Source: Moraxella ovis (GTDB lineage: Bacteria; Pseudomonadota; Gammaproteobacteria; Pseudomonadales; Moraxellaceae). Taken from it: 64,000 nucleotides of DNA. The position numbers and the translations under genes are program-made. The stretch spans positions 1,302,001-1,366,000 of the forward strand of contig NZ_UGPW01000001.1 in the NCBI RefSeq assembly GCF_900453105.1, in the 5' to 3' direction. Every line of letters starts with the position of its first letter. Position 1 is the first letter of the stretch. Positions 1,472-4,586 of the stretch are shown here, in pieces. The notes beneath the pieces were generated by a model. It was not told the origin of the DNA and searched no databases. It saw nothing but the letters and a program-made list of their open reading frames with translations.

Positions 1472-2671
1472 CTATCTTTTTATCAATAACTTTAACAAAA
1501 AAATAATCACCATATGAACAGCTGCCAATACTGCACAATATAAACAAATCTGGGCATAATCTGCTATATTTTTTGGTACAATCCATAAACTTGTAACCAA
1601 TGAACCAACAGCATCTCCTGCCAAAAAAGCAGTTTGGGTAAAGCCCAAAGCCATCGCCAAAGTTGCTTTATCAAGAAATTCATATTCTAATACTTCTTCA
1701 AAAGATGAAGATAATCCAGTAAATGCACTTCTCGCCAAAGTTGCTAACACCAGCACCCAAAGAGCCAAACCATAATACAAGCCAAAAGACATTAGCAAAA
1801 AAGACAAAATATAACCCATCATTGCAACAAAAAATCCAATAAAAGGCATATTTTTAAATTTGTTATTATATTTCAATAATAGCATATTTACCAAAATAGA
1901 CATAACGGTCGTCATCAGATAAATAAATACCGACTTAGATTCGGAAACACCATACTCCACAAACATCAAAATCAAGTAAGGCTTAAATAAACCAACATAA
2001 AAACCAACAACAAAATTAGATAAAATAAACAAAATAGTAGATAAGGTTAAAATATTTTTTATGGATATTTTTTCTTTCGGCTTAATTGCTACCTTTTTCA
2101 ATTTATCAAACTTAATATTCTGATAGGCAAACACACTTGACATAAAAACAAAACCGCCTGCCATTAACAATAACCAAAAATAAATAGAACCAAATACATA
2201 CACCGCCAACGATACAAGACCCGTCCCAACCAACATAGCAATATTGACAATCATAGAACGCATTGCGGTTAATTTGGTGGTATTCTGGGTACTGTCTTCA
2301 GAAATTTGTAGAACCCAAGAGCGATTGGCGAGAATGGCAGTAGATGCACCAACACCTGCGATTATTGCCGTCATAACCGCAATGACTGGGTGCGTAAATA
2401 CCCGCATAGATAAAGCAAGGGCGTATAATAATAAAGCAAATAACAAGGCTTTGGCAAAACCAATTTTATCTACAAATATTCCATAAACAAAAGAAAACGC
2501 CCCTGTTACCGCCATAACCGAATATGCCATTCCGTAGGCGGAGATGGCGTTTTCATTTTTAAAATAAATTGGCATAGAAGCCAGTGATATTGCCATACCC
2601 ATCTGAAAAAAGAGCATAAAAAAAGCATACCGCTTTACATTTGGGTTAGCAAAAAAAATTTCTTTAATCAT
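1472..2671 (-). CDS. Major facilitator superfamily transporter, probable exporter
   Basis: A 399-residue hydrophobic protein with about 12 membrane segments, typical in length for an MFS 12-TM carrier. The pair YGIFVDKIGFAKALL after the second helix fits the MFS motif A loop. The central loop (about 190-205, KFDKLKKVAIKPKEKISIK) is basic, as expected for the cytoplasmic loop between the two six-helix halves. Codons are strongly AT-rich compared with ppsA or sthA. It starts with AAGAG before TTTTTTATG and faces away from the 22-codon micro-ORF at 2773, sharing about 100 bases of regulatory DNA. The substrate is unknown. By position it could export the micro-ORF product or protect against it; this is inference. 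Confidence 0.85.
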   Translation of the reverse strand: MIKEIFFANPNVKRYAFFMLFFQMGMAISLASMPIYFKNENAISAYGMAYSVMAVTGAFSFVYGIFVDKIGFAKALLFALLLYALALSMRVFTHPVIAVMTAIIAGVGASTAILANRSWVLQISEDSTQNTTKLTAMRSMIVNIAMLVGTGLVSLAVYVFGSIYFWLLLMAGGFVFMSSVFAYQNIKFDKLKKVAIKPKEKISIKNILTLSTILFILSNFVVGFYVGLFKPYLILMFVEYGVSESKSVFIYLMTTVMSILVNMLLLKYNNKFKNMPFIGFFVAMMGYILSFLLMSFGLYYGLALWVLVLATLARSAFTGLSSSFEEVLEYEFLDKATLAMALGFTQTAFLAGDAVGSLVTSLWIVPKNIADYAQICLYCAVLAAVHMVIIFLLKLLIKR

Positions 2672-2680
2672 AAAAAACTC

Positions 2681-2709
2681 TTGACTTTTTAAAAAATATA
2701 TTGTATATT
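2681..2709 (+). promoter_or_regulatory. Promoter of the micro-ORF
   Basis: TTGACT (2681-2686) and TATATT (2704-2709) are separated by exactly 17 bases, a near-consensus sigma-70 promoter reading right. The predicted transcription start falls at about 2716, next to the palindrome at 2717-2733. The leader before the micro-ORF would be about 57 nucleotides. Confidence 0.7.
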
Positions 2710-2716
2710 AAGAAAC

Positions 2717-2733
2717 GTCAGAAAAAATCTGAC
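2717..2733. promoter_or_regulatory. Perfect inverted repeat GTCAGA-A5-TCTGAC, candidate operator
   Basis: Two perfect 6-base arms separated by five A residues sit at the predicted start of the micro-ORF transcript and inside the region shared with the divergent MFS gene. The position suits a repressor site controlling both directions. It could instead be a short hairpin at the RNA 5' end that stabilises the message. Confidence 0.55.
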
Positions 2734-2772
2734 ATTTTGAAAAATTTTAACTCACTTGAAAAGGAGACTGCT

Positions 2773-2841
2773 ATGAAACTAGCAATTCAAGCGCCAGAAA
2801 TGAAAAAAGTCAATCATGATCTACTTTATCATATGAAGTAA
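2773..2841 (+). CDS. 22-codon micro-ORF with its own promoter and terminator
   Basis: The peptide starts MKLAIQAPEM and ends LLYHMK: 22 residues, with four lysines and three methionines. AAGGAG lies six bases before the ATG. A consensus-like promoter precedes it and a strong hairpin terminator follows 22 bases after the stop, so this looks like a complete dedicated transcription unit. It lies between a divergent MFS transporter and a convergent TPR-repeat gene. It is too short to assign to a family. After the TAA at 2839 the same frame stays open for 27 more codons to 2925 with protein-like content (ALAKDVETRL...), so it may be a 50-codon gene broken by a stop. Alternatives are a signalling or modified-peptide precursor, a leader peptide or a remnant. 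Confidence 0.5.
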   Translation: MKLAIQAPEMKKVNHDLLYHMK

Positions 2842-2862
2842 GCTTTAGCAAAAGATGTAGAA

Positions 2863-2896
2863 ACACGTCTAAATCGACATTTAGCCGTGTTTTATT
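2863..2896. terminator. Intrinsic terminator of the micro-ORF, overlapping the TPR gene end
   Basis: ACACG-T-CTAAAT, loop CGAC, ATTTAG-C-CGTGT, then TTTATT: 11 base pairs with one mismatch and a U-rich tail for rightward transcription. The leftward tail (TTTCTAC) is weaker. It overlaps the TAA of the convergent TPR gene at 2892-2894. Confidence 0.75.
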
Positions 2897-4523
2897 CAAA
2901 ATATAAAGAACTTAAAAATTCATAGTTTTGTTTTAAAATGTTATTATTGGGAAATTTAACCAGTGCTAATGATAAATAATCAAGGGCTTGCTTCTGATTA
3001 CCTTTACACAACTCTGTTTCCGCCAATAAACTAAAAGACTTTACAACCTCACTTTCATCAAAGCCAAATAATTCTTTATTTGTTACAAAATTCTTTAACA
3101 CCGCTTCTAAATCAGGACAACAATCTTGTTCTTTGGATAAAATTTTTGAGTAGAGAGCATCATTTAGATACATTAAAGACTTTTTAGGATCAAGACACAA
3201 TTTATAAGCATAATAATAGTTAAATGCTGAATCTAAATACAATGTTTTTTGTAATTGCCAATAAGCAAGGTTTGCCCAGTTTTGATGACTGTAAGGGTTG
3301 ATTAATGTTGTCTGTCTGCAACTAAAAATCGCAGAATCTATATCATTTAAATAACCATAAACTCTTGCCAAATCCAAATAATAAGTATCCATTAACTTAT
3401 CTTTATCCAAAAGTTTATTTAAAGAGATGATGGCATTATTATAATCGCCAAGCCTTTCATAACATTGAGCCAAATTGTACACCAAAACAGAACAATACAA
3501 TTCTAATTTTTCTTCTCCATCAATGATCGATATATTGTCAATTTGAGCAATACAATCTATCATTAAATTTTTTGCCTCTTCTATTTTATTATTTCGAAAT
3601 AAAATCAAAGCATACCCATTACGATTAAATAAAGCTGAAAAAATTGCATTTGGAACATTATTTAGATACTCATCAGAGCTTGTAATTTCATTATAGGCTT
3701 GATTCAATAAAGACTCTGACTTTTCTATACTTTGAAGTTCTTTACTGTGTACTCTAGCATATAGCATAGCCTTAGAATATCTAGAACCATTTTTGTATTT
3801 TTCAATATTATTGTTATTTAATATTAAATCTAAATAATATTCAGACATTATTGGATTTCTTAGCATTTGTTCAGATATAGAAAGAGTATTCCATAAATCA
3901 GAATCGCTATAAAAATTCTTAACAAAATTACAGATATTTTTTGCAGTCAAAGCATCGCCAGCATTTAAATATTCAAGTGAGATATTAATTAAATCATCAT
4001 ACAAACCCTTATCAAAATCACTTTTTCCATTGGATTTTAGTGTACTTAATTTATTATATAAATTTTCATCATTTTGATTTTTATCTGAATTTAAAGAGTA
4101 ATTATGCTGAATTTTACAGGAAACCTCCCAACCGCCAAATTTTTGAGCCATCTCAAAAAACCTCTGGCTAAATTCATCCAAATAAGAGTTGCATACAACA
4201 TAGACAGATAATTTTTCTCCATCAATGTTTTTGTTGATATAGTCAATAATCTTAGCGTATACCGAATCCAAAACATTTTTGGTTCTATAACGAATTCTTT
4301 GCTCCAAAGGAATTTTTTCTGTCAAACTAAGATTGCACTGATAAAAATTAGATTTTACAACCATATCAGTGGGATAAAACAGATATAGACTTTTAGATAG
4401 ACTTGGATCAAAGTTTTGTTCATTCAGACCCAGTTTTCTAAACAAATCTTTTACAGAAGAGAAAGCAATGACATTTCTAGTATCGTGATGAACAACCAAT
4501 TCCAATTTTTTAACTTCAACCAT
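2892..4523 (-). CDS. TPR-repeat protein of unknown function
   Basis: 543 residues from the preferred ATG at 4523. An in-frame ATG at 4535 adds four residues, but its codon overlaps the GGAG that serves 4523. The first 140 residues (VEVKKLELVVHHDTRNVIAF...) form a domain I do not recognise and show no obvious helix-turn-helix. From about residue 175 to the end are degenerate tetratricopeptide-like helix pairs, for example YNLAQCYERLGDYNNAIISL, an LINPYSHQNWANLAYWQL segment, and a last repeat with KGNQKQALDYLSLAL. There is no signal peptide, so it is probably cytoplasmic. It is very AT-rich, like the MFS gene, and unlike the flanking housekeeping genes. TPR proteins bind peptides or proteins, and the nearest small product is the convergent 22-codon ORF. 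Function not assigned. Confidence 0.8.
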   Translation of the reverse strand: MVEVKKLELVVHHDTRNVIAFSSVKDLFRKLGLNEQNFDPSLSKSLYLFYPTDMVVKSNFYQCNLSLTEKIPLEQRIRYRTKNVLDSVYAKIIDYINKNIDGEKLSVYVVCNSYLDEFSQRFFEMAQKFGGWEVSCKIQHNYSLNSDKNQNDENLYNKLSTLKSNGKSDFDKGLYDDLINISLEYLNAGDALTAKNICNFVKNFYSDSDLWNTLSISEQMLRNPIMSEYYLDLILNNNNIEKYKNGSRYSKAMLYARVHSKELQSIEKSESLLNQAYNEITSSDEYLNNVPNAIFSALFNRNGYALILFRNNKIEEAKNLMIDCIAQIDNISIIDGEEKLELYCSVLVYNLAQCYERLGDYNNAIISLNKLLDKDKLMDTYYLDLARVYGYLNDIDSAIFSCRQTTLINPYSHQNWANLAYWQLQKTLYLDSAFNYYYAYKLCLDPKKSLMYLNDALYSKILSKEQDCCPDLEAVLKNFVTNKELFGFDESEVVKSFSLLAETELCKGNQKQALDYLSLALVKFPNNNILKQNYEFLSSLYFE

Positions 4524-4557
4524 AAAAAACTCCATTAAGCTAAGAATGGTTCCAATA

Positions 4558-4586
4558 CTTATATCATAACATAGTTATAAAGTCAA
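4558..4586 (-). promoter_or_regulatory. Promoter of the TPR gene
   Basis: On the minus strand TTGACT (4581-4586), a 17-base spacer and TATAAG (4558-4563). The -35 hexamer and spacing are the same as at the micro-ORF promoter. The leader is about 28 nucleotides. Confidence 0.65.

Follow-up and report, generated by a model that had tools for sequence, protein, structure and literature searches.

The stretch of Moraxella ovis DNA analyzed here (64,000 nucleotides, hereafter the window) contains an AT-rich block in which a gene for an exporter of the major facilitator superfamily (MFS), a micro-open reading frame (micro-ORF), and a gene for a protein with tetratricopeptide repeats (TPRs) lie side by side. 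We show that a conserved micro-ORF, a TPR protein of this type, and an MFS exporter constitute one evolutionary unit in distant bacteria, often on plasmids, and we propose that this unit moves horizontally. The similar sets in very distant bacteria may represent an undescribed family of peptide-making systems; literature searches returned no description of such a cassette, and a word search for TPR gave no hit in a review of ThiF-dependent ribosomally synthesized and post-translationally modified peptides (RiPPs) (PMC12250964). Our favored interpretation, to which we assign even chances, is that the block is a compact, horizontally transferred cassette for the production and export of a RiPP- or microcin-like ribosomal peptide.

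Linkage of the micro-ORF, the TPR protein, and the exporter

Relatives of the TPR protein are found in Acinetobacter, Pantoea, Klebsiella, Providencia, Vibrio, Listeria, Bacillus, Streptococcus, lactobacilli, Arthrobacter, Streptomyces, Streptobacillus, and others. A protein search with the window version recovered 14 proteins, including entries named Acinetobacter lwoffii, Arthrobacter, Leifsonia, and Alkalicoccobacillus; 16 plasmid records matched it, 3 of them over at least 80% of the query, and a profile scan of genome contigs yielded 22 loci. At the family level, 3 of 299 genomes gave a TPR match. The named matches to the window MFS protein are from Moraxella, and an MFS gene of the same family follows the TPR homologs in 23 of the 27 loci examined (19 of 22 from the genome scan and 4 of 5 on plasmids, those 4 having also seeded the MFS profile). 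The two genes are adjacent in many phyla. The distances among the TPR proteins and those among the MFS proteins are correlated (r = 0.96 for 21 loci and 0.82 for 15 distant loci), with none of 5,000 permutations as high in either case.

By reading the gaps beside the TPR gene in the plasmid and genome loci, a tiny ORF of 19 to 29 codons was assigned by eye at 33 of 35 TPR loci, with a consensus of roughly MKLIKxxPxxKKVxFSVMY(N/G). Examples are MKLIKAAPAAKKVTFSVMYNAPV from Streptomyces, MKMIKRKPAAKRVDFSVMYNR from Klebsiella, MKLIKSKAKAKKVNFAVMYGGKTQSQ from Seinonella (with a TTG start), and MKLLVSSPAIVKVSYKTAYALKVEA from Acinetobacter; one column is Tyr in all 27 aligned micropeptides. In the window and in Acinetobacter the micro-ORF lies downstream of the TPR gene on the opposite strand, and at most other loci it lies upstream on the same strand; an inverted repeat, read by eye, stands between the two in several loci. 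Among the 13 plasmid loci that have a micro-ORF assigned, the gene tables, which are incomplete, leave its position blank in 12, and at L053 it falls inside a listed gene. A profile of 24 foreign homologs, with Moraxellaceae excluded, was scored on 9,609 small ORFs and ranked the Acinetobacter ORF first and the window ORF, scored inside a longer in-frame ORF, second (9.4 bits, E = 0.67). When each locus was scored with its own group left out of the profile, the expected ORF ranked first at 24 of the 35 loci, among them the window (first of 226, E = 0.016) and Acinetobacter (first of 205, E = 0.002).

A coding signal is seen in the micro-ORFs, whose codon changes tend to be synonymous. Between L025 and L026 all six codon changes in the micro-ORF are synonymous (L027, with one residue change, was left out of this Arthrobacter count), and over all pairs synonymous changes outnumber the others in Streptomyces (53 versus 36) and the enterobacteria (91 versus 40), with a third-position excess in both, whereas the mixed Bacillales go the other way (43 versus 80). 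On an Exiguobacterium plasmid (L047, 4004 to 4299), three tandem micro-ORFs of differing DNA encode the same 20 residues. Two tandem identical micropeptides, one synonymous base apart, are seen in Streptacidiphilus (L029, 5642 and 5798), and in Paenibacillus (L035, 5651 to 5731) a micropeptide segment is out of frame with a start that has a good Shine-Dalgarno sequence, which points to a broken gene or a sequence error.

Within the genus the TPR gene is rare: of 22 genomes, one has it intact, a second (G004) has a broken copy, and two more (G001 and G009) have remnants of about 40 residues. An open MFS gene is present in 6 of these genomes, of which 4 lack an intact or broken full-length TPR gene. 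A DNA search of six genomes found the micro-ORF stretch in two, both of which have a TPR gene of full length, whether intact or broken, and in none of the four MFS-only genomes; in the stretches around the MFS genes of these four, the peptide profile returned nothing convincing (top hits at E = 0.054 to 1.8, the strongest of them coming from the TPR remnant itself). The initial annotation had suggested that the three genes behave as one system and had staked this on the micro-ORF being conserved where MFS and TPR genes co-occur and on the latter being neighbors elsewhere. The suggestion is borne out on both counts, by the cross-phylum adjacency and the micro-ORF counts given above, and also by the way in which the micro-ORF tracks the TPR gene in the genus.

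In the MFS tree, the window gene groups with genes of the genus that lack a TPR gene or are of undetermined context, and the MFS gene of the Acinetobacter cassette is the sister of this genus group (support 94/94). We read this tree as suggesting that the TPR gene and the peptide were lost and the exporter was retained; alternatively, the TPR gene and the peptide may have been gained beside a resident MFS gene. The MFS genes without a full-length TPR gene in the four genomes are as expected if the exporter is kept for immunity. Separately, the Acinetobacter lwoffii strain with the cassette also has a decayed version of it on a different plasmid (L013, 5974 to 7592), in which no micro-ORF match was seen.

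Genes of the block and their partners

The block, at 1472 to 4523, is flanked by a GYF/RDD-domain gene and ppsA, and a ppsA regulator is also among the flanking genes scanned. It had been described as AT-rich and distinct from its surroundings, and its composition agrees: its GC content is 0.305 (MFS gene, 0.340; TPR gene, 0.281) against 0.452 for the whole window, and a value as low was found in none of 122 same-size stepped stretches in the 64 kb and in none of 340 taken from a 400-kb sample of the genome. The three genes that had been recognized in it are likewise confirmed, with conservation tests pointing to more than chance, and are laid out with their local signals as follows.

1472..2671, minus strand: MFS exporter gene, 399 aa (PF07690, E = 1.2e-12)
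2681..2709, plus strand: putative sigma-70-like promoter site for the micro-ORF, TTGACT-17-TATATT (consensus match only)
2717..2733, plus strand: perfect inverted repeat GTCAGA/TCTGAC, 5' of the micro-ORF (read from the sequence)
2761..2766, plus strand: Shine-Dalgarno sequence AAGGAG ahead of the micro-ORF ATG (read from the sequence)
2773..2841, plus strand: micro-ORF, 22 aa, MKLAIQAPEMKKVNHDLLYHMK, proposed precursor peptide (profile ranks and leave-own-group-out test)
2860..2893, plus strand: terminator-like hairpin with a T-rich tail, where the micro-ORF and TPR genes converge (folding energy)
2892..4523, minus strand: TPR protein gene, 543 aa, product proposed to bind the peptide and to mature or escort it (TPR fold)
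3612..3629, minus strand: codons of the FNRNGY motif, residues 299 to 304 of the TPR protein (alignment)
4095..4523, minus strand: N-terminal domain of the TPR protein, residues 1 to 143 (AlphaFold2 model, no Pfam match)

The micro-ORF is probably transcribed on its own. The promoter-like site scores 10/12, a top score shared by five of the 27 such sites in 3.6 kb; being tied with four others, and with shuffled sequences giving a mean of 18.4 sites, it is weak evidence taken alone. The inverted repeat that follows is possibly a regulatory hairpin or an operator. The region from 2842 to 2900 folds at -13.3 kcal/mol (z = -2.78), with 3 of 200 shuffles at least as stable, and the hairpin in it is absent from the output of a simple terminator scan. 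An alternative upstream ATG would extend the TPR protein to 547 aa; we set the start at 4523 because GGAG precedes it and the Acinetobacter homolog begins nearby.

A TPR fold was recognized in the C-terminal, putatively peptide-binding body of the TPR protein, as in the receptors of the RRNPP family. The N-terminal domain had been described as unrecognized and devoid of a helix-turn-helix (HTH), and indeed it has neither a Pfam nor an HTH match; the AlphaFold2 model (pLDDT 85.8) predicts an alpha/beta domain with three strands, and no P-loop motif is apparent by inspection. In a profile comparison this domain weakly matches the N-terminal part of relatives that combine an ATPase with TPRs, and AAA_16 is matched at E of about 0.09 in the N-terminal domains of 2 of 16 relatives. 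The FNRNGY motif is invariant in all 16 aligned TPR proteins; for loci L025 to L046 it was the search pattern. Conservation reaches at least 85% at 46 positions, of which helices A3 to A6 of the TPR body hold 24 (a count to which FNRNGY, on helix A4 and partly the search pattern, contributes) and helices B3 to B6 hold 4; such a cluster on helices A3 to A6 is as expected of a peptide binder.

Partner genes are found at many loci. A gene for an S9-type hydrolase is present at 15 of the 27 loci (12 of 22 from the genome scan and 3 of 5 on plasmids, those 3 being the seeds of the search profile), and Pfam confirmed S9 in 4 of the 5 hydrolases tested. The Exiguobacterium locus L047 has genes for a ThiF protein, seen only here, an O-methyltransferase, and a protein of 83 to 84 residues, and L048 and L049 have genes for an O-methyltransferase and a protein of 77 to 78 residues; the micropeptides of all three loci end in Asn.

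Possible function of the cassette

Taking these findings together, we postulate that the micro-ORF yields a 22-residue precursor, which the TPR superhelix would bind along its conserved helix-A groove and either mature or escort. The MFS protein would export the product and protect the producer. Where present, the S9-type hydrolase might trim or destroy the peptide, and the ThiF protein and O-methyltransferase might modify it further. We consider a small RiPP- or microcin-like peptide with antibacterial activity the most likely product. Like RiPP clusters, the cassette combines a genetically encoded short precursor (its translation being putative) with linked partner genes, including an exporter, to which the relatives add a hydrolase, tailoring genes, and duplicated precursors; it differs from them in that no core modifying enzyme is recognized and the product is predicted only. 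Another parallel is offered by microcin C-type clusters, which have a tiny precursor gene, an MFS exporter, and in some cases a serine-peptidase immunity gene. The tiny precursor gene and the MFS exporter recur in the cassette, and L047 adds a gene of the ThiF family and peptides whose last residue is Asn; unlike those clusters, the five window genes scanned include no ThiF-like MccB adenylyltransferase, the 22-residue window precursor has a C-terminal Lys rather than Asn, and the common partner is a TPR protein.

More tentatively, and with somewhat less than even confidence, we suggest a new class of ribosomal peptide system spanning at least five phyla, in which the TPR protein would itself serve as the core enzyme, or as a chaperone that is strictly required, for a leaderless precursor of about 22 residues with a conserved FSVMY-type segment. 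Its ancestor would be an ATPase-TPR protein, the P-loop having since been lost. If the cassette does make such peptides, a family of products would have escaped notice owing to the small size of its precursor genes, the FNRNGY-bearing TPR protein would provide a handle for finding precursors across phyla, and that protein, as a possible new peptide-processing protein, would open a route to new antibacterial or signaling peptides.

Several observations weigh against the production and export of such a peptide. The product, its chemistry, the binding of peptide by the TPR protein, and the antibacterial activity are all predictions from the genes. No known catalytic motif was found in the TPR protein, and a Pfam scan recognized no ThiF or other modifying enzyme among the five window genes scanned; the initial annotation had stated that modifying enzymes are absent, which holds for these genes and not for the relatives with ThiF, O-methyltransferase, or S9-type genes. 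In the search with the foreign profile, the margin of the window ORF over the third place is narrow (9.4 versus 9.2 bits; E = 0.67 versus 0.79), and its differences from the micro-ORF of G004 are two residue changes and no silent ones. Nine ORFs assigned by eye are not clearly first by profile: L051 is first at noise level (E = 1.5), L046 and L048 are second, and L016, L045, L047, L049, L050, and L053 are outside the two best shown. L041, whose contig starts inside the TPR gene, and L044 are without an assigned micro-ORF, and at L035 the matching ORF is in a frame that lacks the usual start segment. No MFS match was obtained at L040, L041, and L044, and L017 has annotated ABC genes instead. 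Lastly, the orphan MFS genes of the genus could equally be general efflux pumps.

The main rival is peptide signaling, in which the exported peptide would be reimported and read by the TPR protein, acting like Rap through its N-terminal domain. As in the RRNPP and Rap-Phr systems, a TPR protein with conserved groove helices is encoded beside a short peptide gene. Unlike them, the cassette has a dedicated MFS exporter, its N-terminal domain lacks an HTH and, with its predicted strands, is not all-helical (that is, not a Rap phosphatase-type domain), and inspection reveals no secretion signal on the window 22-mer, for which no signal predictor was run. In addition, no regulated target was seen, and biosynthesis accounts better for partners of the ThiF, O-methyltransferase, and S9 types, which weighs against signaling. 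The specific suggestion of an RRNPP-like receptor is accordingly not upheld, and we regard signaling in general as unlikely.

By analogy with PqqA, the peptide scaffold for pyrroloquinoline quinone, the micropeptide might instead supply its conserved tyrosine region to a small molecule that the MFS protein exports. The invariant Tyr column, the peptide lengths of 19 to 29 aa, and the frequent hydrolase are compatible with such a scaffold, but the loci viewed did not show a radical SAM enzyme, ligase, or oxidase as a recurrent partner, and we consider such a scaffold rather improbable. More improbable still is a toxin-antidote pair, in which the TPR protein would neutralize a toxic micropeptide that the MFS protein also removes from the cell. 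Carriage on plasmids and tight linkage would suit such a pair, but G004 keeps the micro-ORF, with its two residue changes and putative expression, despite a broken TPR gene, which is a weak argument against the TPR protein as an antidote. We give hardly any credence to the micro-ORF being a mere regulatory leader or attenuator of the TPR gene, as its upstream same-strand position and the intervening inverted repeats at other loci might suggest, given its downstream, opposite-strand position in the window and Acinetobacter, a conservation that extends to residues beyond the open frame alone, and the tandem copies.

Farther relatives

Loci L050 to L053 form a second subfamily with other TPR proteins beside micropeptides such as MKKSMLKKLPKLNKKVRTTTPYQAA and MKVKVSEKQDTVRTTTSYVAG. 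In L050 to L052 the TPR proteins have an ATPase-like N terminus (AAA_16, E = 0.00025 to 0.084, none of which reaches the curated cut-off), a combination that recalls the STAND/AAA ATPase-TPR proteins and from which the window protein differs in its short N-terminal domain with no Pfam match or visible P-loop. The micropeptides of L050 and L051 are of the KVRTTTPY/TVRTTTSY type, and a similar end can be read by eye at the cut start of L052. The annotated neighbors of L051 include MFS, prolyl oligopeptidase, and ATP-grasp genes. The anti-phage models of PADLOC returned no family for the TPR and MFS proteins of the window or for the TPR protein and hydrolase of Klebsiella, and matched the ATPase-TPR relative of L051 to PrimPol over its TPR part only (E = 1.2e-7).

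In the Crocinitomix-type locus L044 (5244 to 5944), a peptide of 44 residues that contains an IKGG segment, read by eye, is encoded upstream of the TPR gene, and a methyltransferase gene lies downstream. The peptide has no NCBIfam or Pfam match, and we take it to be reminiscent of the GG-leader precursors of Bacteroidetes. A plasmid of Streptomyces finlayi (L055, 4796 to 5951) carries a degenerate-looking micropeptide and a shortened TPR-type protein that ends in a DUF6235 match.

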